From Paracholeplasma manati (GTDB lineage: Bacteria > Bacillota_I > Bacilli_A > Acholeplasmatales > UBA5453): a stretch of DNA of 64,000 bases. The notes under the pieces are model-generated. The model did not search any database. It worked only from the letters and a program-made list of their open reading frames with translations, and was not told the origin of the DNA. This document shows, one piece after another, positions 44,327 to 55,602 of the stretch. The stretch's first letter is position 1. Each line of letters opens with the position of its first letter. Location: positions 310,001-374,000 of the forward strand of contig NZ_JAOVQM010000001.1 of NCBI RefSeq assembly GCF_025742995.1, given 5' to 3'. The position numbers and the translations under genes are program-made.

Positions 44327-45256
44327 CTATTTATGAATATGTCTCTTGAATCTAATAAATTGTAGAATGTATTGAACAAAATGGAATGAAAACATCACAA
44401 TCACGATAGACATTAAAACAATGTAAAAAATCGTAACATTACGTTTTAATAATTGCCCTTCAAAGAACTCATATAAAGACGTAAAGCTGAGTGTTAAGGA
44501 TAACATTGTAACCAAATACGATGTTATTTTTTGTCGTTTTTCTTTGTCATGTTTCCAAGTGAAAGTTAACATATCAATGATAGAGACGGTACTGTTTATA
44601 TTGAGTGTTAAATTCATACTAATATCCCATTTTTCATAAATCAGGTTATAAAGTGCAAGTTCATCTTTGTTCACTAAGAAAGAAGAAGGTTTCACCACTT
44701 TATTCATAGTGCCAAGGTAAAAACCAATTAAGTATGAATCAATTTTGGTTAGATTATTTTTATTCACGTTATTGTTGAGGAACTCTTTAATGTAATAGAT
44801 GGATTCATATATGAAACAACAATCGATAAAACCATATGTTTTATAATGATTGATGTCAATATTATCGGTCACATAGAGTCGATTCAAATCATTAGTAGCA
44901 TCTTGAATTTCTTTCTTTGAAACATAAATGATCATATTCCAATCGGTATCAGACTTTCCGTATCGATTTAAAACTTGTGTCTTGAGTTCATTATATGTTT
45001 TTTCATACTTTGGACTGGAAGGATCACCCAAATAATCCCTTAAAGCTTTATCAGATGAGGTAAAGGATCCATAAGGTTGAATAGTAATGATAACACCCAA
45101 GGTATTTGATAGTACGATGATATCACCAATATCTTCTCTATCATATTTAATCAATTCCGGAACCAGTGTCAAATTGTCTCTCTTAATAATGCCTTTAACT
45201 GGTGTTGTTCCATATGAACCACTATGGAAAGCATTAACAATATAGGTATTTACCAT
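44327..45256 (-). CDS. Hypothetical protein with two C-terminal membrane segments
   Basis: 309 aa. The first 235 residues are soluble with no recognised motif (begins VNTYIVNAFHSGSYGTTPVK); residues about 245-270 and 275-300 are hydrophobic, probably a membrane hairpin with a basic cytoplasmic tail (RFKRHIHK). Its start overlaps the end of the peptidase gene upstream by 7 bases, so the two are coupled and may work together, for example as a membrane partner for the peptidase. This is inference from arrangement only. Confidence 0.6.
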   Translation of the reverse strand: MVNTYIVNAFHSGSYGTTPVKGIIKRDNLTLVPELIKYDREDIGDIIVLSNTLGVIITIQPYGSFTSSDKALRDYLGDPSSPKYEKTYNELKTQVLNRYGKSDTDWNMIIYVSKKEIQDATNDLNRLYVTDNIDINHYKTYGFIDCCFIYESIYYIKEFLNNNVNKNNLTKIDSYLIGFYLGTMNKVVKPSSFLVNKDELALYNLIYEKWDISMNLTLNINSTVSIIDMLTFTWKHDKEKRQKITSYLVTMLSLTLSFTSLYEFFEGQLLKRNVTIFYIVLMSIVIVMFSFHFVQYILQFIRFKRHIHK

Positions 45257-46341
45257 AATCGATAAAAGTCACCTATGTGACCTTGTGAAATATGATCAAG
45301 AAAATCAACGATGTTCTTATACTTATTTTTGTCTAGCAAATATTCAATCATAAATGCCCCTAAATAGTAAGACTCCATATAACCGATGTATTGAGTATAA
45401 TAAATCAAAGATTCTCCTTTGGCGGTTTCCTCATAGGTACCATCCAACATTTGCTTTGAGATGTTGGCATATTTTACCCTTAAAAAGTTAGCATAGTCGC
45501 TAATACTGGTTGCCATCTCAACAAAGGTTGCGTAGCCTTCGATTAAGAACATCGAGCCTGAATCAATGACATTATGATCGTTTTTCTTAATTCGATCAAA
45601 AAAGTAACCGTGACCTGGATATACTTCGTGAAGAATGGTATATAAAAAGTCATCATAGTTCATGGCGTCATCATTTTTATATAGGATTAATGTATTTTCA
45701 TTATAATCATCATATAAGTCTTTATCCCACCATTCTCCAAATCCATGGTCCTCATTTACGATGATGTTAAAGTTACGATTACTCATCGGACCAAATTTTT
45801 CGATGAGTTTTTGGTTTGTCGATATTTCTTGAATTAACTGCCTGAAAGTTTCTTTAACATCGTGAGTGACCAAGGTTTCTTTGGTATGATTTGGTGGCGT
45901 TGTATTTGAGACAACGTGAATATAATCAGACAAAGGTGAAAGATACTGGCCAAATATAATGTCATATAATCGATACATGTGATTGATATTCTTGGATTTA
46001 TTGACAGCGAAATCAAGTATAAATGTTAGTTCTTTTTCGTACATTTTCCAACCTGAAATTGATTTCAAGTAATAATCATATAGCGCTATTGGAACGGATA
46101 TCACTTCATCGATGTGGTCCATTGCTTTTTGGATAATTGATGAGTGCGAAGATTCTGACTGTTCTGACAAAGCATCTATTAACAACTGGAATGTGTAAAA
46201 ACCTTGATAATACTTTAATACTTCTGTCATGATGTTCTTTTCTAATGGATTATAGTGATGGATGAATTCAATAACCTCATTAAGTACGATGTCATTAAAA
46301 TATATTTGATAACGCCACATCCATTTTTTATTAATAATCAT
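45250..46341 (-). CDS. DUF885-like metallopeptidase (gluzincin-type motif)
   Basis: 363 aa from the ATG at 46341, with AAGGAGG 8 bases before it. The motif ILHEVYPGHGYFFD followed about 20 residues later by FLIEGYATFVE matches the HExxPGH...EG zinc site of the DUF885/M3-like family (usual form HEAYPGHH). The protein is shorter than typical DUF885 enzymes (550 aa or more), lacking much of the N-terminal half. No signal peptide, so probably cytoplasmic. Substrate unknown. First gene of a minus-strand pair with the membrane protein at 44327. Confidence 0.75.
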   Translation of the reverse strand: MIINKKWMWRYQIYFNDIVLNEVIEFIHHYNPLEKNIMTEVLKYYQGFYTFQLLIDALSEQSESSHSSIIQKAMDHIDEVISVPIALYDYYLKSISGWKMYEKELTFILDFAVNKSKNINHMYRLYDIIFGQYLSPLSDYIHVVSNTTPPNHTKETLVTHDVKETFRQLIQEISTNQKLIEKFGPMSNRNFNIIVNEDHGFGEWWDKDLYDDYNENTLILYKNDDAMNYDDFLYTILHEVYPGHGYFFDRIKKNDHNVIDSGSMFLIEGYATFVEMATSISDYANFLRVKYANISKQMLDGTYEETAKGESLIYYTQYIGYMESYYLGAFMIEYLLDKNKYKNIVDFLDHISQGHIGDFYRLW

Positions 46342-46740
46342 TTGTTCATCCTCCTTAGAGTTACTGGCATAGTATAAATATAATAACACATTTGAGTAAT
46401 CACTTCATAGTTACGAGAGTGGTTTTATTCGCAATCTGCACATATCGTAGCTTAATAGTACGAATGTTATAAATGGATGATTTGAAGTAGTTTAGAAAGA
46501 ATTGAATAAAATGCTTCATAATAAATCTAATTTTGTAATAATTTGATTAAAAACCACGTAGTACAAATCAAATAAATTATGCTATAATTCAAATAATGAA
46601 TTCGTTTTTAATAACGTTTAGTTCTCATACATTTCAGTTAATGTTGTTGACCGAAACACCTAACAGTTGATGTTTTGTAAGTCAATGAGGTGTGGTTCTA
46701 AATCAGTTAAATTTATAATGAAGGGGTTTGGAGATAAGAC
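46342..46740 (+). other. Intergenic region upstream of the TerY-P operon
   Basis: 399 bp with no gene. It contains a perfect 8-bp inverted repeat, ATTTGATT (46541-46548)/AATCAAAT (46566-46573), just before the extended -10 TG-C-TATAAT (46580-46588); a leader stem ACACCT (46656-46661)/AGGTGT (46688-46693) with an inner TTGA/TCAA pair; and another TATAAT at 46714-46719 near the start codon. The left end must hold the divergent peptidase promoter, not clearly identified. Confidence 0.5.
46541..46588 (+). promoter_or_regulatory. Promoter with operator-like inverted repeat for the TerY-P operon
   Basis: Extended -10 TGCTATAAT (46580-46588). The 8-bp inverted repeat at 46541/46566 covers the expected -35 region, so a bound protein would block polymerase. 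Confidence 0.5.
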
Positions 46741-48033
46741 ATGTTATTCAATATTGCACAAAAAGTTAAACTAGAGAACGGCGAATTTGCGATCATCAAA
46801 AAGTTTTTAGGTGAAGGTGGACAAGGCGAAGTGTATTTGGTTTCACAGGGTAGTAGAGATTATGCTTTAAAATGGTACAAAATGTTGCCAAGTGAAAGCT
46901 TTATTAACAACCTTAGAAACAACATTCATTTAGGTCAACCGAGTAATGATTTTTTATGGCCACTTAGATTAACAGAAAAGAGCAATCAAGGTGTTGGATA
47001 TTTGATGGATTTAAGGCCATCGATTTTTAAAGACTTTATCGCATTTTTAAATGCCAAAGTGAAGTTCTCATCACACAGTGCATTAGTAACCTACTGTTTG
47101 AATCTAACCAATGCTTTTAAACAACTACATCAACGTGGGTATAGCTATCAAGATTTAAATGACGGCTCATTCTTTTTCAATCCCGACAATGGTGATGCAC
47201 TAATATGTGATAATGACAATGTCGCGAAGTATGGAACGAACCTTGGTATCATGGGAAAGATGAAATACATGGCTCCTGAAGTTGTGGTAAAAAAGAACTT
47301 GCCAGATACACATACTGACCGATTCAGTTTGGCAGTTATCTTATTCATGACTTTGACCTATGGACATCCATTCCAAGGAGAACTGTTAAGAAATTATCCA
47401 ATGATTGATGAAGCAGCAGAATATGAACTATATGGCGCTTCACCGATATTCGTTTTTGATCCTAACAACACCAGTAACAGGCCAATTCGTGGCTATCATA
47501 ATGCTGTATTGAAACTATGGCCAGAATTGCCAAACTATGTCAAACAAGAATTCATTAAGACGTTTACTGAAGGTTTGTTGGATAGAGAAAACGGAAGAAC
47601 AACCGAACTCAAATGGGTTAAGACATTTCAAAAATATAGAGATGAAATCGTCAAATGTCCAAAATGTAATTTTGAATATCCTGCTCAAACTTATCCAAAA
47701 TCAACTTGTCCAAAATGCAAACTAAATCATGAAATATTGGGCAAATTAACAATTAATAACCACTTAATTTACTTAGATTCAAACAAAGAAATCTACCAAA
47801 CACATATAGACAAAACATCCAGCGAATATGGAAAAGTTGTAGGTCGAGTAGTTGAAAACAAGAATAATCCAAACCTCAAAGGCTTTAAAAATCAATCTGA
47901 TCGAGAATGGAAAATTACAGATATTAATGGTATGAGTAAAATAATACCGCCAGAAGGTGTTTTCAGACTCGATATCAAACAACTTACAATAGATTTTGGC
48001 GAAGGCATTACAGGAGAATTTCAAAGTATATAG
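46741..48033 (+). CDS. TerY-P triad protein kinase with zinc ribbon
   Basis: 430 aa. Serine/threonine-kinase fold: glycine loop GEGGQG (24-29), K44 in YALKWY, catalytic D138 in YSYQDLNDGSFFF, and metal-site D157 in ICDNDN in place of DFG. A zinc ribbon (CPKCNFEYP, then CPKCKLN, about 303-330) and a beta-rich C-terminal module (VVGRVVENKNNPNL, DFGEGITGEF) follow. This layout is that of kinases in TerY-P triads, described in tellurite-resistance-type stress modules, and the VWA and PP2C partners follow directly. The usual Asn five residues after the catalytic Asp is Ser143, so activity may be reduced. Confidence 0.88.
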   Translation: MLFNIAQKVKLENGEFAIIKKFLGEGGQGEVYLVSQGSRDYALKWYKMLPSESFINNLRNNIHLGQPSNDFLWPLRLTEKSNQGVGYLMDLRPSIFKDFIAFLNAKVKFSSHSALVTYCLNLTNAFKQLHQRGYSYQDLNDGSFFFNPDNGDALICDNDNVAKYGTNLGIMGKMKYMAPEVVVKKNLPDTHTDRFSLAVILFMTLTYGHPFQGELLRNYPMIDEAAEYELYGASPIFVFDPNNTSNRPIRGYHNAVLKLWPELPNYVKQEFIKTFTEGLLDRENGRTTELKWVKTFQKYRDEIVKCPKCNFEYPAQTYPKSTCPKCKLNHEILGKLTINNHLIYLDSNKEIYQTHIDKTSSEYGKVVGRVVENKNNPNLKGFKNQSDREWKITDINGMSKIIPPEGVFRLDIKQLTIDFGEGITGEFQSI

Positions 48034-48045
48034 GGAGGGTAACAC

Positions 48046-48786
48046 ATGAACGGGAACAGCAGTAATTACGATTTTGTAGAAGGTATTGCTAAACAAGTAT
48101 TAAATTTATTTTTCATCATCGATTCATCTGGATCGATGAGCGGAGAGCGAATTGGGGCAGTTAATAATGCCATCCGTGATGTGATGGATATCATGCCTGA
48201 AATTCAAGAAGAAACAGCAGATGTTGAAATTAAGATATCTGCATTAAAGTTTTCAGATAAAGCCTCATGGATTTATCCTGAAGCCAAATCTGTGGAAGAA
48301 TTTAAATGGAAAGACATCAATGCAGATGGTGTTACCAATTTAACTGATGCATATCAGGAACTTGAGAAACAACTAACCAAGGAATCCAACGGTGGTATGA
48401 TGCCCGATTTTGGTGGTTATGCACCGATCATGATTTTAATGACTGATGGATTACCAACATCTCCAGATTGGCCAACTGCGCTAGAAAGTTTAAAAAAACG
48501 TGGATGGTTTAGAGTTGCTTTAAGATATGCGTTAGCTATTGATATCGATTCTGATGAAGCAAGAGACGTGCTTATTGCATTTACAGGTAATTCAGAAACC
48601 CTATTAAAAGTACATTCAGCAGAATCGCTAAGAAAAGTTATCAAGCTCATTGCAGTCACTGCATCTAAAGTTAAGAGTCAATCATCAACCACTTTAAATA
48701 ACCAAGCTGGTGCTCAAAACCAAGCAGCAACGAAACAAATCAATGATTCTTTAGCAGACATTGATGACGTAGACGGTTGGAATTAA
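48046..48786 (+). CDS. TerY-like von Willebrand factor A domain protein
   Basis: 246 aa, essentially one VWA domain. The metal-ion-dependent adhesion site is complete: DSSGSM (D26, S28, S30), the threonine in GVTNLTDAY, and the aspartate in LMTDGLPT. The TerY type lacks a signal peptide and acts in the cytoplasm as a metal-dependent binding partner. It sits between the kinase (12 bases upstream) and the phosphatase (2 bases downstream), the standard triad order. A low-complexity tail rich in Gln/Asn/Ala (about 215-235) precedes the end. Confidence 0.92.
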   Translation: MNGNSSNYDFVEGIAKQVLNLFFIIDSSGSMSGERIGAVNNAIRDVMDIMPEIQEETADVEIKISALKFSDKASWIYPEAKSVEEFKWKDINADGVTNLTDAYQELEKQLTKESNGGMMPDFGGYAPIMILMTDGLPTSPDWPTALESLKKRGWFRVALRYALAIDIDSDEARDVLIAFTGNSETLLKVHSAESLRKVIKLIAVTASKVKSQSSTTLNNQAGAQNQAATKQINDSLADIDDVDGWN

Positions 48787-48788
48787 CA

Positions 48789-49871
48789 ATGAGCTTTGAA
48801 GTTCATCACTACAAATCAATTGGAAAAAAACACGCGCTTGAAGGAAGTGTTTGTCAAGACGCGGTTGACTCCTACCAAGATGAACATATCGCCATTACGG
48901 CAGTAGCGGATGGCCATGGCAGTAGCCAATATTTTAGAAGTCATCTAGGTAGTCAATTTGCAGTCGAGGGTACTATTGAATTATTAAAAACTTTTTATCA
49001 GGTACATCCAAATTATTTAGATGCTCAAAAGCATTTAGAAAATCTTAAGTTGCAAATCCTAGTAGAATGGAACAACCGAGTAGAAATGGATTACAAACAA
49101 AACCCCATTAAATGCGAGGAATTACACCATTTGAGTGAAAAACAACAACAAAGAATCAATGATAATTACTTTACCGCATATGGCACCACATTGTTAGCAT
49201 CTTTATGGTGTAAACAATATTTATTGGTCTTTAGAATTGGCGATGGGATAATTGCCAAAATGGATCCATCACTTGAGGTGAAACAACTTTTAGTTGATCA
49301 AGAGGAACAAGGGGGCAGTTTAACGGATTCTATGTGTCAAGAAGATGCTTACACAAGAATGCAAGTTGAAATTGTCGACAATCCAAATACGACAGCGCTC
49401 GCAATATGCAGTGATGGAGTGATCAATGGATTTGGCAATTTATACAAGTTCAACACATACCTTTTTAAACCGTTATTGATTGAAAGATTTAGATATGACC
49501 AAGCCAGTATGGCTAATATATTAAACCAAGCAGTCACACAAATAGCGGGGGCATTCTCATCCAGCGATGACTCTAGTCTTGCCATAAGTTATGTGGTACC
49601 AACCACATCACCCAGCTTAGATTTTTATGATTGCGAAAAAATGAGAACTTTATTAGAATTGGACAATCTAGATCAAGTTGATATCGATAATCAGCTGAAA
49701 TTATACAAGACCATCGATAATGATGCTTTGTTAACATTTACTGCTTTTATTCATAATCAAGAACTGCTGAATCCAACAGAACGACAACTACGTTTATATC
49801 AAACATTAGTAACCTCACATCAACCTTTAGAAGCCTTAGTAAAATTCACGGATCAAGTTATCAAAGAATAA
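48789..49871 (+). CDS. PP2C-type protein phosphatase of the TerY-P triad
   Basis: 360 aa from the ATG at 48789; a TTG at 48777 would overlap the VWA gene and lacks a better site. PP2C metal ligands and motifs: CQDAVD (D24), VADGHGSS (D41), GTTLLASLW, FRIGDGIIA, ICSDGVINGF and SSDDSSLAI. It would remove phosphate from targets of the kinase encoded two genes upstream. The last 90 residues are helical and specific to this protein. Confidence 0.92.
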   Translation: MSFEVHHYKSIGKKHALEGSVCQDAVDSYQDEHIAITAVADGHGSSQYFRSHLGSQFAVEGTIELLKTFYQVHPNYLDAQKHLENLKLQILVEWNNRVEMDYKQNPIKCEELHHLSEKQQQRINDNYFTAYGTTLLASLWCKQYLLVFRIGDGIIAKMDPSLEVKQLLVDQEEQGGSLTDSMCQEDAYTRMQVEIVDNPNTTALAICSDGVINGFGNLYKFNTYLFKPLLIERFRYDQASMANILNQAVTQIAGAFSSSDDSSLAISYVVPTTSPSLDFYDCEKMRTLLELDNLDQVDIDNQLKLYKTIDNDALLTFTAFIHNQELLNPTERQLRLYQTLVTSHQPLEALVKFTDQVIKE

Positions 49872-49880
49872 AGGTGCTGT

Positions 49881-51500
49881 ATGATATTACACGAAGCATT
49901 AAGAAAAATTAAAACTGACTATTTAAAGGATTCAAAAATTACCAATTTTGAGTTGGTTCATTCTTATCTTTTAGATTTGTGCTCATCGACTGAAGATGAA
50001 AAACGCTCGGTGAGAAAATTCAAACTATTTATGAATGATATCAATGTATTCTCTTATTTAGTCAATAGTGATAACGCCGATGATGCAATTTCAAAGGCGG
50101 TTTTTGCTTTTGAAAATCACGGTATAGATGCAGATAATTACAAATGGGTAATTGCGCAATGTGTATATGCATTTAAAGTGACGGTCAGTTTAGATTTAGG
50201 TAAATACAAAATACCATTACGAAAATCAAGTACAAACGGGTCAACGCAGCCTAAAACAACCAATAGTGTGAGTTCGATCGGTAAGACATCTACAGCAAGC
50301 AAAACATCGACTTCCGCTACACCCAAAACATTCACACAACCAACAGTATCAAAACCAAGCACATCACAACAATCTGCACCGCTGAAACCAGTAGTTAGTA
50401 AATCGGTATCACAGTCGTCAACAACATCAACGCCAGCATCACACACACCTGTTACGAACACACCAACAACACCTACATCAAGTTATTCAAATTCCTCGTA
50501 TTCCTCTAGCTCGTATTCGACAAGAAATTACTATTCTTCAAGTCGTCTAGACTTATTCTTCACACGTCACTGGGCAATTTCACTACTCTTTTGGTTAGTT
50601 TTATTAGGCATTAGCCTCTATTTTTTCCCGGGGCATAGTAAACTTATTTCAATACTTTCATTGATAGTTGGTATCATCGGTATCGTGGACATGAGTTTTT
50701 CATTATACAAACATATCGATGATGATGATATGTTTATTCTTGTACTCATATTACCACTATTCATAGCAGTTAATGCAGTCGTATTATTCTTTTTACCACA
50801 CTCATATTATTATATTCTTGGCGGTCTATATATTCTTATCCTTCTTTCAGGTGCATTATTAGTATTGTTTTATTGGATGAGTGATGAATTTGATAGTGCG
50901 TATATTAGTACATTTCTAATTATCATTTTAATTTATATGCCACTCACTTATTTTATTTTCAATATATGGTTAGAATGGCATGATCTTTTTGGACTTTCAC
51001 TCGTATTTGGTACATTATTACTAGCTATTAACTTGTACTTTTTAAGAAAAAATTACTATAGTTCGAAAGGCTTTACAGACATTATCTACACATTAACATT
51101 ACCAATAATCAGTTCATTGGCTTTCTTCTATTTAATTGATAACCATATCAATGGCTTGTTTGGAGAACTTATTTTCCTTTACATACTCTATTTCGTTGTC
51201 TATTCAGTATTCCATACACTGATAAGTTTTTTTAGTAAGGATGGTCCTGTTCGTCAAAATATTTTAACCATTTCAATGATTGTTTTCACCTCATATGCGG
51301 TGGGTTATTTATATCTACTTGAAGTATTCGAACCTAGACATGTCGCGATTGTCGGGCTATATGGGGGACTACACTTCATATTCCATGCAGCGATTCATAA
51401 CGATGAAATGAATGATGGGACGGCGACATTCCATTTTCTCACATCTATTTTGCTGATAGTAGGCAGTATTGTATTATTTATTTTTCCAAACATTATCTAA
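49881..51500 (+). CDS. Polytopic membrane protein with shared N-terminal domain and Ser/Thr-rich linker
   Basis: 539 aa. Residues 1-110 form a helical domain shared with the next gene (VRKFKLFMNDINVF; SKAVFAF; WVIAQCVYAF). Residues about 115-225 are a Ser/Thr/Pro/Gln-rich linker. From about 230 there are some ten transmembrane segments to the end. The linker is a plausible phosphorylation target of the adjacent kinase (inference). The N-terminal domain resembles helical modules found in bacterial kinase/Hsp70-linked proteins (pattern D-LC-x-R-x-n-L-x-GV...W-V), recalled, not searched. AAGGTG precedes the ATG, 9 bases after the phosphatase. Confidence 0.7.
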   Translation: MILHEALRKIKTDYLKDSKITNFELVHSYLLDLCSSTEDEKRSVRKFKLFMNDINVFSYLVNSDNADDAISKAVFAFENHGIDADNYKWVIAQCVYAFKVTVSLDLGKYKIPLRKSSTNGSTQPKTTNSVSSIGKTSTASKTSTSATPKTFTQPTVSKPSTSQQSAPLKPVVSKSVSQSSTTSTPASHTPVTNTPTTPTSSYSNSSYSSSSYSTRNYYSSSRLDLFFTRHWAISLLFWLVLLGISLYFFPGHSKLISILSLIVGIIGIVDMSFSLYKHIDDDDMFILVLILPLFIAVNAVVLFFLPHSYYYILGGLYILILLSGALLVLFYWMSDEFDSAYISTFLIIILIYMPLTYFIFNIWLEWHDLFGLSLVFGTLLLAINLYFLRKNYYSSKGFTDIIYTLTLPIISSLAFFYLIDNHINGLFGELIFLYILYFVVYSVFHTLISFFSKDGPVRQNILTISMIVFTSYAVGYLYLLEVFEPRHVAIVGLYGGLHFIFHAAIHNDEMNDGTATFHFLTSILLIVGSIVLFIFPNII

Positions 51501-51522
51501 AAGAAAACATGCGGGGTAGATT

Positions 51523-52386
51523 ATGCTATTCAATGAAGCGCTTTTTCTCATCTTATCCAAATACTTGTCTAGTGAACAATTAATGAATTATAAGATTGTT
51601 CAAGCACATCTGATCGATTTATGTTCTGATTCACCTGAATCGCTAAAAATGGTCAGAAAGTTTTCAATTTATATGAACGATATCAATGTATTTAAATTCT
51701 TGCTAGATAAGTCTTCAAGTGATCCATTATCTAAAGCATTGTATGAATTTAATAGTTATGGTATCTCTGCCTCTGATGCTAGTTGGGTTATAAACCAATG
51801 TTTGATGGCTTACAATAAATCCTATAAGACATCCATACCACTGTTGGATATGAAACAGCAAATAGGATCAACCAATACAGATAAAATGAATAAACCAAAT
51901 TCTAATAAAAGAATAACGAAACCAAATGAATTAAACGTGAAATCAACTACTAACAACACAAATGAATTATCACAATTAGTAAGATTACCACAAGTCATGT
52001 TGAGGTTTGATTTGCCTAATAGCTATCAAATTACAGAACATTATTCAAGTAGTTTTGGTGCGAATAGAGGAAGTCACAGAATATATATAGCTATCGGAGA
52101 AAAATCACCCTATAAAGAAAAATTCAAAATAACAAATTTGGAGCATTTCGCCTATTTTATTCTAGATTTTTTAAGCGCTAAGGGGATGCTTTTCAAAGCA
52201 AAAATAGGAGAATTCGAAGGATTTGAAGCAGATTGTGATACCAATACACCAGAAGAACAAAAGAGGTTTGCATTCTTTGAAACAAATAATCACTACATCG
52301 CGATATCTTTTACTACGTTAAAACCCATGAAGAAGTCACAAATTAATGAATTTGAAAGTATAATAAATACGATAAGGGCATATTAA
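51523..52386 (+). CDS. Soluble protein with the shared N-terminal domain
   Basis: 287 aa. Residues 1-110 match the previous protein (VRKFSIYMNDINVF; SKALYEF; WVINQCLMAY). A short Asn/Lys/Thr-rich linker leads to a C-terminal alpha/beta domain (about 155-287; YQITEHYSSSFGANRGSHR, YIAISFTTLKPM) that I do not recognise. No membrane segment. The shared domain suggests that both proteins are recruited by the same partner, perhaps the kinase or VWA protein. It starts 22 bases after the membrane protein gene. Confidence 0.65.
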   Translation: MLFNEALFLILSKYLSSEQLMNYKIVQAHLIDLCSDSPESLKMVRKFSIYMNDINVFKFLLDKSSSDPLSKALYEFNSYGISASDASWVINQCLMAYNKSYKTSIPLLDMKQQIGSTNTDKMNKPNSNKRITKPNELNVKSTTNNTNELSQLVRLPQVMLRFDLPNSYQITEHYSSSFGANRGSHRIYIAIGEKSPYKEKFKITNLEHFAYFILDFLSAKGMLFKAKIGEFEGFEADCDTNTPEEQKRFAFFETNNHYIAISFTTLKPMKKSQINEFESIINTIRAY

Positions 52387-52407
52387 ATTCCTATAGGAGG
52401 AGAAAAA

Positions 52408-53181
52408 ATGAGAAAAGTATTAACATTGGTATTAAGCGTCATTATGGTTTTATCATTGGTTGCTTGTGAGAAAAGTAAACCATCGAAAAATCAATTTGGT
52501 TATTTTTCTGTAAATGGGAAAACATTAATCTCCCTAGCCGAAAATGAATTGTCTTATGAAAGTGCAAAGGCCTTTGTCACTAGAATTAGTTCTGCTGACA
52601 ATGAACAAAAATTATTATCAGCAAGTAGAGATACGACATTATCGACTGATGAAATTAATCGTATTCTTAGTACATTCGGGGGACTTGAAATCGATTATAT
52701 GTATTATGATTTGAGCGGAGATGAAAAGAGTGGTAGTTTTAAATTAGAAGGATCTGACTTAGCTAACCATGTTACGAACGGAAGCATACCATTATTCTAT
52801 GGGATACTTATTACTGATATTGTTATTAATCTAGAAGTATTAGAATATTATCAAGAACAAAACACACTATTTAAGACATTACCTAATTACAATGTTTTTC
52901 CATTTTCGAATATTTACACCTACCACCAAACATTTGATGGGAAGTCATTTGTTTTACAAGTTCACGATTTTACAGAACTACCAAATAGTATCGGATATGC
53001 ATCTGGTTTCTCATCAACCTATCTTAAAGAAAATGAAGTTGTTTATGATGGTGAATCTCGTCTAATCACAACCTATCAAACTGCACAAGGAATAAAAATA
53101 CAGTATCCTGATGGAACTGGATTTTATGGCGCACTTTTTAGAGCGGATTTTAACTGGATTCCTAAGACTAACAATAACTAA
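52408..53181 (+). CDS. Lipoprotein of unknown function
   Basis: 257 aa. The N-terminus is a classic lipoprotein signal: basic start, hydrophobic core and lipobox LVAC with C20, followed by a charged segment. The mature part has no recognised domain. AGGAGGAG precedes the ATG. As last gene of the triad operon it gives the module an extracellular component that could report surface stress to the kinase; that role is speculative. Confidence 0.75.
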   Translation: MRKVLTLVLSVIMVLSLVACEKSKPSKNQFGYFSVNGKTLISLAENELSYESAKAFVTRISSADNEQKLLSASRDTTLSTDEINRILSTFGGLEIDYMYYDLSGDEKSGSFKLEGSDLANHVTNGSIPLFYGILITDIVINLEVLEYYQEQNTLFKTLPNYNVFPFSNIYTYHQTFDGKSFVLQVHDFTELPNSIGYASGFSSTYLKENEVVYDGESRLITTYQTAQGIKIQYPDGTGFYGALFRADFNWIPKTNNN

Positions 53182-53242
53182 TATAAGATGTCTATTAGTT
53201 GATAGTGTTTATAATGATTTATTAAGGATAACATAAACAAAT

Positions 53243-53303
53243 AAAAACAATAATAGTGCACCACAATTAGAACGTTCAACGTGGTGGGCATTATTGTTTT
53301 TTT
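53243..53303. terminator. Bidirectional terminator between the triad operon and the Ntn cluster
   Basis: AAAACAATAATAGTGCACCAC and GTGGTGGGCATTATTGTTTT pair over almost 20 bp with few mismatches around a 16-nt loop; A- and T-runs flank it. Confidence 0.85.
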
Positions 53304-53304
53304 G

Positions 53305-53883
53305 TTACAGTTCAATAACCTGTCTTTTACAACCAGTATAGTCAATAATTTGGTAGAATAATTTATTAGGTTTTCTTTGGATATATCTGGTGAGGGTTCT
53401 ATAAACCTCAAGCATCATATCTAGTGGATTCGAGGTGGAAGAAAACTTTTGGTTAATTTGAGCAGTGAATAGATCCTTATACTCTCCAATAGTAAAAAAT
53501 GAATCAATTTTGTTGATGACGTAAAATGAATCCATGATATATATATCTTGTTCATGAATGAATAAATAAGACCCATATAATCGTTTTGGTGGTTTTTGAG
53601 TGTATTCCGAGAAGTTGGTTAAATGCTGACGAATCTGTGGTGTAAATATATCTTTTATCCATTTAGAAGAAAATGATTGTGGGTCGAATTGAATGTATTT
53701 TATAACTTCAGAATTTCTACCAGAATCAGTGGTTATTACATAGGTGTTATTCATTGATGGAATTTGCCAAAACGGATGATTTTCAACATTTTGCATGTCA
53801 TCATCGTGATAACCGATTAACCCGATATTTTCACTGTCATAAAATAAATGGATTTGAGTATCTTTTTTAATTACTGTAATCAT
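53305..53883 (-). CDS. Degenerate Ntn-hydrolase (proteasome-fold) paralogue
   Basis: 192 aa, last gene of four overlapping minus-strand genes. It aligns with the C-terminal half of its neighbours (YLFIHEQDIYIMDSFYVINK then FFTIGEYKDLFTAQI, equivalent to IIIAKRDKLFRIYDSGAVVE then FVAIGSGQSYALAFY in the first gene). The N-terminus MITVIKKDTQIHLFYDSENI keeps the two-strand pattern but no nucleophile/Asp17 pair and no GSG. Probably a structural subunit. Overlaps the upstream gene by 4 bases (ATGA). Homology to the Ntn fold is inferred through the first gene of the cluster. Confidence 0.55.
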   Translation of the reverse strand: MITVIKKDTQIHLFYDSENIGLIGYHDDDMQNVENHPFWQIPSMNNTYVITTDSGRNSEVIKYIQFDPQSFSSKWIKDIFTPQIRQHLTNFSEYTQKPPKRLYGSYLFIHEQDIYIMDSFYVINKIDSFFTIGEYKDLFTAQINQKFSSTSNPLDMMLEVYRTLTRYIQRKPNKLFYQIIDYTGCKRQVIEL

Positions 53884-54455
53884 AATGGATTTACCTCATT
53901 AAAATGATAGGTATGATCTGATGTGTTGTAAACCACATATCGAGTTGAATAGTTACTATATGAGTGGGATACTTTTTTCATCAAATCATGAATAAAGTCA
54001 TGAATATTGAGGTCATCAGTGAAGGTCATTAAATTACTAAACAAAACTTGTTCCTCTTGACCAAATGCAGCGTAATGATCTACTTCAACAACGAAAAGAG
54101 ATCGCAAAAGCTGATAAATCTTGTTTTTATATACAATAATATGTCGAAACGCTTTTTGTGAATTTTCTTCTTTAATTAAACCCAAATCACAAGCGCGTTT
54201 GAACCAAGGGTTTACAATTTGATTCACAATGATACCTTTGTTGGATAAATCATTTTGAGGTAATTTGAACCACTGTGGGTTATCACTTAATATGTAGTCT
54301 ACGGGATTGGGTTCGTACGATCCCACGACAAAATTATCGTTTTTAAAAACGACTCCGAAATCTTTTGGTGTCAAGTGCGCTTGTTTCAATTCAGGGTTTA
54401 AGTTACCAACCAAATAAACAATCCCACAATGTTTAATAGCAAAATTTATACTCAT
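53880..54455 (-). CDS. Degenerate Ntn-hydrolase (proteasome-fold) paralogue
   Basis: 191 aa. The start MSINFAIKHCGIVYLVGN parallels MSLVIAIKHGEIVYFGAD of the first gene, including the Ser after Met, but the Asp at the 17th position of the mature chain is Asn (LVGN). Later blocks are similar in position (FRHIIVYKNKIYQLLR; VVEVDHYAAFGQEE). The catalytic lysine cannot be located. Likely inactive or altered. GGAGG lies ahead of the start, within the upstream gene; overlaps of 4 bases on both sides. Confidence 0.6.
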   Translation of the reverse strand: MSINFAIKHCGIVYLVGNLNPELKQAHLTPKDFGVVFKNDNFVVGSYEPNPVDYILSDNPQWFKLPQNDLSNKGIIVNQIVNPWFKRACDLGLIKEENSQKAFRHIIVYKNKIYQLLRSLFVVEVDHYAAFGQEEQVLFSNLMTFTDDLNIHDFIHDLMKKVSHSYSNYSTRYVVYNTSDHTYHFNEVNPL

Positions 54456-55015
54456 AGGTCCTCCATTGAATGGATGTATCTTATACGTTCTGTTTTAGTA
54501 TCAAGAATCGCAATTGGAAACGGATTTTTGAAATTATCCTCACAGTCTGCTTTTATACTTAATACCAATCGTGTAATTGGGTCGTTATCTTTATGTGCTA
54601 GCAGTGTAGCAGTTAACAAAGAACTTCCAAACTGGTTATCATAACTGAGTATTTTAATAGTCTCATCTGTATCGACGAAATAGGCATCATCATTTTTAGC
54701 AATATATATGCCACAGTTCATGTTACCCTCTTCGTTTAATCGCCCCATCGATTTTAAAAGAAAGTTGTATTTTGGGATAATAGTTTCTACTAAATTAGAA
54801 TAGGTGAGTGTTATATGAATGGGTTCATATCTAAGTATGTCTGCGTCTCTCAAACTAGGAAAAACGGCCATAATGGTATTTTTTGACCCTTTGACCTTCC
54901 AAAAAGGAATGTTTTCTTCAATCAAAAAGGCATCTATATCGTAACAATACAACGATATAGAACTTACGGATGTTGCAAAGTAGGTTGTTCCTTTTTCACG
55001 TAACATTATAAACAT
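54452..55015 (-). CDS. Degenerate Ntn-hydrolase (proteasome-fold) paralogue
   Basis: 187 aa. Pattern of strands as in the first gene (MFIMLREKGTTYFATSVSS; NTIMAVFPSLRDADI; NCGIYIAKNDDAYFVDTDE; AILDTKTERI). The start has no Ser/Thr/Cys immediately after Met, and no Asp17 or GSG equivalent is visible, so no peptidase activity is expected. AAAAGGA lies 10 bases before the start; an internal ATG at 55006 is less well placed. It overlaps the first gene by 10 bases. Confidence 0.55.
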   Translation of the reverse strand: MFIMLREKGTTYFATSVSSISLYCYDIDAFLIEENIPFWKVKGSKNTIMAVFPSLRDADILRYEPIHITLTYSNLVETIIPKYNFLLKSMGRLNEEGNMNCGIYIAKNDDAYFVDTDETIKILSYDNQFGSSLLTATLLAHKDNDPITRLVLSIKADCEDNFKNPFPIAILDTKTERIRYIHSMEDL

Positions 55016-55602
55016 AGTTGAGAATTCCTTTTCTCTATTTTTAAAGTATCTGTATCCATGAGTGTGACTTGCCCACCGACGGAGTTAACATATTCATCTG
55101 TAAAGGCGATTGCATTTACAATAAATTGATTCACATCTTTAATGGGTTTATGGATTCTGTAAAATGCGAGTGCATAAGATTGACCACTGCCAATGGCCAC
55201 AAATTCAGGTATCTCAACGACTGCACCTGAATCATATATCCTAAACAACTTATCTCGTTTTGCAATAATTATTGACATCGATAGAGTTTTAGCACCATTA
55301 GAAGTAGTCGTTAATTGATCATAGGATTTCAACTCTTTAAAAAGTTTTGGCAACACTTCTGTGACTAAATATTTCTTGCTCAACGGTTGGTTTTCTAAAC
55401 CGTCAAACCACTCAGGATGAAAAGTTATTTGCTGAATTGAACTCACATAACCACTAAGCCCAACTACAATACCGTGTCCTAAAGAAATGATTTTATATTC
55501 TTCTTCAAAGCTACTAAAGATTTTTCCATCGCCAATAGTTGTTTGTGTATCAGCTCCGAAATACACTATTTCACCATGTTTAATTGCAATAACTAAACTC
55601 AT
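55006..55602 (-). CDS. Proteasome/HslV-like Ntn-hydrolase with Ser1 nucleophile
   Basis: 198 aa, promoter-proximal gene of the four. Sequence MSLVIAIKHGEIVYFGADTQ has the proteasome-beta/HslV/Anbu pattern: after Met removal Ser1, then Asp17 in GAD, Lys36 in EEYKIISLG (Lys33 in proteasomes), GLSG at the usual strand after it, and FVAIGSGQSYALAFY, equivalent to the AIGSG helix-start of the family. The nucleophile would be Ser rather than Thr. No ATPase partner (HslU, Mpa) is in the window. GGGGG lies before the ATG. The nearby kinase/phosphatase operon is convergent. Confidence 0.8.
   Translation of the reverse strand: MSLVIAIKHGEIVYFGADTQTTIGDGKIFSSFEEEYKIISLGHGIVVGLSGYVSSIQQITFHPEWFDGLENQPLSKKYLVTEVLPKLFKELKSYDQLTTTSNGAKTLSMSIIIAKRDKLFRIYDSGAVVEIPEFVAIGSGQSYALAFYRIHKPIKDVNQFIVNAIAFTDEYVNSVGGQVTLMDTDTLKIEKRNSQLCL

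Follow-up and report, generated by a model that had tools for sequence, protein, structure and literature searches.

A stretch of 64,000 nucleotides from Paracholeplasma manati (contig NZ_JAOVQM010000001.1, positions 310,001 to 374,000; hereafter the window, in whose numbering positions are given) carries between 46741 and 55602 a TerY-P kinase/VWA/PP2C triad that converges on a cluster of proteasome-like (Ntn) genes. The two blocks very likely form one functional system, and they probably represent a single accessory cassette, a TerY-P variant with a small, presumably ring-forming, proteasome-like effector. This reading is built on the shared presence of the two blocks, their linkage, the existence of two Ntn subunit types (A and B), an active site that is intact in A only, and the proteasome fold modelled for B. 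All ten open reading frames (ORFs) proposed for this segment in an earlier reading of the DNA made without database searches (the sequence-only reading) were confirmed in position and strand. The plus-strand block (46741-53181) comprises the kinase, VWA and PP2C genes and three accessory genes, as that reading had described and as ORF positions and Pfam matches bear out; the minus-strand block (53305-55602) consists of four paralogous Ntn genes encoding 187-198 amino acids (aa) each and overlapping by a few bases.

Co-inheritance of the Ntn genes with one kinase clade is well supported. A profile scan with the kinase covered a genome collection holding one genome per species (84,980 species), from which the best 80 of at least 355 relatives were kept. 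In a tree built by a 'quick' method from 86 kinases, one per locus (the 80 scanned, that of the window, that of genome G060 and those of four class genomes), all 12 Ntn-linked triads fell within a single clade of 17 members (SH-aLRT 97), whereas none of the 69 loci outside it carried Ntn genes. None of 500 label shuffles was as clustered as the Ntn-linked triads. Fisher values for the association were 4e-11 (12/17 vs 0/69) and, for loci with at least 2 kb of flank on both sides, 3e-9 (10/13 vs 0/49), and these values describe rather than test the association because the clade was recognised after the result had been seen. At least 3 kb was available on each side of 42 of the 69 outside loci. 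The Ntn-bearing tree loci are the window, L008, L031, L034, L035, L036, L037, L038, L039, L041, L042 and L097, with records named from Clostridia to Erysipelotrichaceae; two clade members without Ntn genes, L032 (6.1 kb) and L043 (3.7 kb), lie on short contigs. The window kinase is the deepest branch within the Ntn-linked clade and is 46-50% identical to clade members over most of its length.

The Ntn genes have the orientation of the kinase in 11 of the 12 Ntn-bearing tree loci and often lie only a few bases from it: the Ntn end and the kinase start are 14 bp apart in L038 and overlap by 4 bp in L034. Across the 12 loci, divergence of the A-type proteins was correlated with that of the kinases (Mantel rho 0.44, p 0.003). 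VWA genes come after the kinase in the clade loci, and a related PP2C is present in 13 of the 17. Once the pattern had been noted, the kinase was searched for in the family of G060 (55 genomes) and in the order of the window (160 genomes). Five kinases were matched in the order, three of them of the window type (the window, G060 and G542) and two not (G018 and G035), and the triad loci of G018 and G035 contained no Ntn gene. In G542, the only case found later, an A gene ends 24 bp upstream of the kinase, which was placed by score rather than by tree (642.7 bits, compared with ~302-313 for the G018 and G035 kinases). The proposal of the sequence-only reading that a proteasome-like effector accompanies a triad of this kind is supported by the clade counts together with G542.

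We examined the four Ntn genes with profiles and a structural model. Only 55006-55602 has a Pfam match over cut-off; the genes at 53305, 53880 and 54452 have none. Iterative profiles over the fetched loci, started from seven seed proteins that included only A of the window, recovered all four genes. Because iterative E-values flatter their own members, we used leave-one-locus-out profiles, in which A (55006..55602, minus strand) scored 152.5 bits, B (54452..55015, minus) 93.6 bits against the B profile from other loci, A' (53880..54455, minus) 49.7 bits against the A profile and B' (53305..53883, minus) 44.3 bits against the B profile. The promoter-proximal gene A also matches Pfam Proteasome (34.3 bits) and the beta-proteobacterial proteasome homolog BPH (5ovu_A, E 1.1e-6), and its profile retrieved HslV (1.1e-9) and BPH (9.4e-9) from the PDB. 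By sequence alone the B profile found nothing significant in the PDB. For an AlphaFold2 model of B (pLDDT 88.3), Foldseek and VIA-align ranked BPH at the top, ahead of 20S subunits, HslV and Anbu, with proteasome-family proteins throughout the lists shown; superposition of the model on BPH 5ovt_A gave Z 15.4 and rmsd 3.0 over 164 aligned residues. The possibility that the three weak minus-strand genes are not Ntn genes was ruled out by the leave-one-out profiles and, for B, by the model. The four Ntn-like genes of the sequence-only reading are therefore retained on the strength of Pfam for A and of these results for the others, the tie of A' and B' to the family being through within-family profiles only.

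The two subunit types are also distinct across loci. In the four triad-linked four-gene clusters, the better-scoring type (A-like or B-like) matched operon position for 16 of 16 genes. A paralog tree placed all 11 B and B' genes in one clade (98/91), which includes two genes of G228 as well; the tree has long branches, and a clade restricted to these 11 was neither shown nor rejected (approximately unbiased test, p 0.106). Cluster composition varies, from one A gene (L035, L037, L038 and L041) or two (L008), through A-B (L031, L034 and L036), to A-B-A'-B' (the window, L039, L042 and L097), these sizes being minimum counts because several contigs end nearby. Each of the four triad-linked clusters of this size has the order A-B-A'-B'; the genes of L042 were taken from a frame-by-frame search. 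A further set of four Ntn genes, in the order B-A-B-A and with no triad, lies within the stretch 1895-13561 of L018 (G228). Its flanks encode a DdmD-like helicase (PADLOC 3e-32) and a PLD-helicase-DUF3427 type IV restriction-like protein (6e-88), a defence-island setting.

The active site is confined to A. Ser1, Asp17, Lys36 and Gly50 of the mature window A protein, together with a GSG motif, occupy the positions of proteasome Thr1, Asp17, Lys33 and Gly47, and Ser1 is predicted from the sequence to become N-terminal through removal of Met by methionine aminopeptidase. A residue table showed the catalytic set in A only: the other three window proteins lack Lys33 and more, with Asp17 replaced by Asn in A' and no position-1 nucleophile in B'. 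The set Ser/Thr1, Asp17, Lys33 and Gly47 was complete in one subunit of each of the 11 triad loci of the tree whose A gene is full-length, namely the Ntn-bearing loci listed above other than L036, which is cut by a contig end. In the other A gene of L008 Arg replaces Lys33, each of the four A' genes misses at least one catalytic residue, and the set is absent from every B and B' gene; the A gene of G542 has the same catalytic residues, by eye. We consider it likely that A and B assemble as a hetero-complex, and the A'-B' genes of the window read as a duplicated, degenerate pair.

The triad itself has the gene content of TerY-P systems, with VWA and PP2C genes adjoining the kinase. The Ser/Thr kinase (46741..48033, plus strand; Pfam Pkinase, 51.2 bits) has a C-terminal extension and, C-terminal to the kinase domain, two CPKC pairs whose four cysteines are invariant in all six kinases compared and which we take to be the zinc ribbon of the TerY-P family description. 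The TerY-like VWA protein (48046..48786, plus; Pfam VWA, 40.7 bits) contains DxSGS, presumably the metal-site motif. For the PP2C-type phosphatase (48789..49871, plus; Pfam PP2C_2, 118 bits), the ATG at 48789 is a likelier start than the TTG at 48777 of the listed ORF. When PADLOC was run on the ten window genes, only the kinase matched any model, and all of the models matched were generic kinase-type. A plasmid search with the window kinase returned two relatives, of 39.5% and 33.5% identity.

Two of the accessory genes encode proteins with a common N-terminus (38% identity), an all-helical adaptor domain of ~100 aa that begins varied proteins adjoining the triad in 58 of the 86 loci. In the first (49881..51500, plus; 539 aa) the domain is followed by a Ser/Thr-rich linker and, in a hydrophobicity scan, ~10 hydrophobic segments typical of a membrane protein; its match to the adaptor-domain profile was borderline (E 0.005-0.008). 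The second (51523..52386, plus; 287 aa) is soluble and has an uncharacterised C-terminal domain. A model of the adaptor domain (pLDDT 89.9) was all helical and had no Foldseek match in the PDB at E<=0.001. The C-termini of the adaptor-domain proteins are variable (membrane segments, RCC1-like repeats by eye, and others), which would fit an adaptor role by analogy with effector-associated domains, as these are described in PMC7159879. The third accessory gene (52408..53181, plus) encodes a lipoprotein with a lipobox ending ..LVAC. It is a conserved partner, with homologs in L031, L035, L037 and L041 (E 1e-20 to 2e-25) that all have a lipobox-like N-terminus, making five loci with the window; in L037 and L041 the gene sits between Ntn and kinase.

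The 123-bp gap between the blocks contains a hairpin (53243..53303) with perfect arms of 12 nt, preceded by an A-run and followed by a T-run on either strand, and folding against shuffles gave z values of -3.2 and -3.6. It was absent from the list produced by a simple terminator scan of the window. Its sequence suits the shared bidirectional terminator that the sequence-only reading had placed here. Upstream, two minus-strand genes at 44327-46389 are divergent from the kinase, and Pfam gave no match for either at E<=0.01; the one of them that was searched for in six genomes of the genus or species had no counterpart there. In an empty-site check of same-genus genomes, one flank gene was not found and the other had only distant relatives.

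Other genes recur around the clade loci. A WYL-type regulator (Pfam WYL/WCX) was present in 7 of the 17 and an AAA+ gene in 4, and helicases near clade loci included an MkoA-like (L120) and a NERD-UvrD-like (L033) protein. No AAA+ gene was detected by Pfam among the ten window genes, and the closest match in the window genome to the AAA+ proteins of related loci had a length that suggests FtsH; the complex may therefore work with no unfoldase of its own. That the AAA+ protein of G060 is an Ntn-specific unfoldase was rejected, since the same AAA+ family occurs in triad loci without Ntn genes (L027 and L029); it thus goes with triads at least as much as with Ntn. The family is also found beside Ntn genes in G589 and G595, with no triad visible before the contig ends. 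A coiled-coil protein and a Vps4/Cdc48-like AAA+ protein recur as a pair in L027 and L029 (triad, no Ntn) and in L140 and L142 (Ntn, no visible triad). Downstream of Ntn-TerY-P loci we additionally observed a 1285-aa protein with a MACPF domain (L041:15708-19565) and a 736-aa lipoprotein-like protein with a PT-HINT domain (L030:7170-9380).

Several findings weigh against a single cassette of the proposed composition. In a class sample of 395 genomes, Ntn genes were found in six, the kinase in five and both in one (co-occurrence p 0.07). Among the 160 genomes of the order the corresponding numbers were 12, 5 and 3, with 9 of the 12 Ntn genomes triad-less at E<=1e-60; co-occurrence p was 0.003, and 0.024 without the window genome. 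The cassette was present in none of the same-genus genomes searched, and the window is the only Ntn-bearing tree locus in which the blocks are convergent. L033, L040 and L068, which form one nested group of the clade, have no Ntn gene despite flanks of at least 2 kb; here Ntn seems to have been lost or moved. No B gene was seen in L008, L035, L037, L038, L041 and G542, which indicates that some of these systems can do without B. In two of the four loci, B and B' change places in the best leave-one-out assignment, and neither these scores nor the paralog tree supported the idea that B and B' are each orthologous across loci.

Convergence across a hairpin, the position of most Ntn genes of the order away from triads in mobile-looking elements and the lack of both blocks in same-genus genomes would all fit two independent modules of a variable island that were joined by accretion. 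We nevertheless regard such accretion as very unlikely, given that Ntn genes share the kinase strand in all Ntn-bearing tree loci but one, from Clostridia to Erysipelotrichaceae, and are specific to one kinase clade, with G542 as a later case. The argument that the blocks are unrelated since class genomes mostly carry one was rejected: the kinases of class triads without Ntn are 37% identical to that of the window and belong to other kinase branches, outside the Ntn-linked clade. On the question, raised in the sequence-only reading, of whether the blocks occur independently in related genomes, the outcome is therefore divided. Whole genomes mostly carry one block, which speaks for independence, but the Ntn-less triads of the class and order samples are of other kinase branches and most lone Ntn genes lie in mobile-looking elements, which speaks against it. 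Ntn genes of this family also occur on their own, and the specific feature is their link to a single kinase clade.

The settings of these lone genes were examined for eight fetched triad-less loci of the order and for G039. Integrative-looking elements with serine recombinases house the Ntn genes of G039, G593 and G622 (RadC-like gene by eye) and of G549 (no RadC-like gene), and that of G561 is in a prophage-like stretch. In G589 and G595 the gene adjoins genes for a coiled-coil protein and an AAA+ protein where the contig ends, in G548 it neighbours genes for ClpP and a type IV coupling protein, and in G541 it is on a 3.7-kb contig (L146), whose gene map shows no Ntn ORF and whose genome-search match contains an internal stop. 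The recurrence, in several genomes, of a lone A-type Ntn gene next to serine-recombinase and RadC-like genes (the latter recognised by eye) was noted in the integrative-looking elements of L009, L017, L143 and L144. At L141:5879-7589 an A-type Ntn gene, one 162-aa gene and ClpP are followed further on by a type IV secretion coupling protein, placing two unrelated protease types within one mobile-looking stretch. No Ntn relatives were found in viral contigs or plasmids, and phages gave one weak match (E 1e-3).

Within the proposed cassette, the lipoprotein and the membrane adaptor would sense an envelope event, either phage attack or another stress; a role of these conserved genes as an envelope sensor is plausible. 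A phosphorylation mark would be set by the kinase and PP2C, helped by the VWA protein as a metal-dependent scaffold, and this mark would open the gate of an A-B ring, bring about its assembly or give substrates access to it. The A subunits would then cut, and the output would be proteolysis of host or invader proteins. Every step from sensor to cut is inferred, and control of proteolysis by phosphorylation, in particular, is put forward tentatively, as a possibility falling a little short of an even chance.

Protease activity of the Ntn complex is not assured, by analogy with BPH, which was inert on test substrates and for which its authors propose an unknown cofactor (PMC5777263). A peptide-binding, ligase or structural ring switched by the triad would accommodate this, as well as the three of four window subunits that are non-catalytic by residue, and connectase, a proteasome homolog, is indeed a ligase (PMC8665760). 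We think a non-protease ring rather unlikely in view of the full catalytic set in one A subunit of every tree locus with a full-length A. Control could also run in reverse, with the proteasome-like complex degrading or trimming a triad component or the lipoprotein sensor and so setting the signal; the placement of the lipoprotein gene in L037 and L041, with Ntn on one side and the kinase on the other, would suit such a scheme, which we judge to be less probable still.

A role of the cassette in defence or conflict is a serious but uncertain prospect. A response to metal or envelope stress, to which the lipoprotein and membrane adaptor genes could point, is a possible but lesser candidate. The WYL regulators and the MkoA-like and NERD-UvrD-like helicases count against stress, as does the experimental TerY-P system that is active against T7-like phages (PMC7699616), and by analogy with these we slightly favour defence.

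TerY-P triads and bacterial proteasome homologs are each known already, and we read their pairing as a TerY-P variant. The window triad shares with described TerY-P systems the same three proteins in one operon and the zinc ribbon C-terminal to the kinase. The partners described in PMC11090510 are restriction and DNA-processing systems (CoCoNuTs), whereas here the partner is a proteasome-like cluster. No paper joining TerY-P with a proteasome homolog was found in the open-access library searched. BPH (5ovs, 5ovt and 5ovu) resembles the window Ntn proteins in fold, subunit size and the catalytic set Thr/Ser1-Asp17-Lys-Gly-Ser; its catalytic residues are Thr1, Asp17, Lys37 and Gly50, and a Ser nucleophile is also known in BPHs (PMC5777263). 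BPH is the product of one gene, forms a homomeric double-ring tetradecamer and had no regulatory partner identified for it, whereas the window has four paralogs in one gene run, with catalytic and non-catalytic members beside a phospho-switch. A phospho-switch that shares an operon with the Ntn genes would be a candidate, for this family, for a cofactor of the kind suggested for BPH.

A parallel for the two subunit types is the 20S proteasome, whose alpha and beta subunits are likewise one non-catalytic and one catalytic type of a single fold. Unlike 20S alpha, which has an N-terminal helix, B lacks the helix in its model and is ~2 residues shorter N-terminally than A, and B groups with A-type proteins of its own family. 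Membership of the HslV family is not indicated, TIGR03692 scoring 24.2 bits against a cut-off of 157.75 and no AAA+ (HslU) gene being present among the ten. The FC1-FC5 proteins of Firmicutes and the AAH proteins are also bacterial proteasome-like proteins, some of them phage-spread, and are compared here by published description: the survey that describes them, covering 22 bacterial proteasome homologs, reports neither an informative genomic context nor an AAA+ partner in the sections consulted, which likewise held no description of an A-B-A'-B' repeat of catalytic and non-catalytic genes (PMC8665760). An independent, alpha/beta-like and signal-gated bacterial proteasome, in which a ring of A-B pairs is gated by kinase, phosphatase and VWA protein, receives input from membrane adaptor and lipoprotein, and acts as a self-limiting immune effector, is a possible but, in its entirety, rather unlikely extension of these results.

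The cassette would be an instance, outside the 20S lineage, of paired catalytic and non-catalytic proteasome-like subunits, and it would give TerY-P systems a new kind of effector. For bacterial proteasome homologs, most of which have yet to be assigned a function, it points to possible regulators and partner subunits, along with an AAA+ protein in some of the loci.

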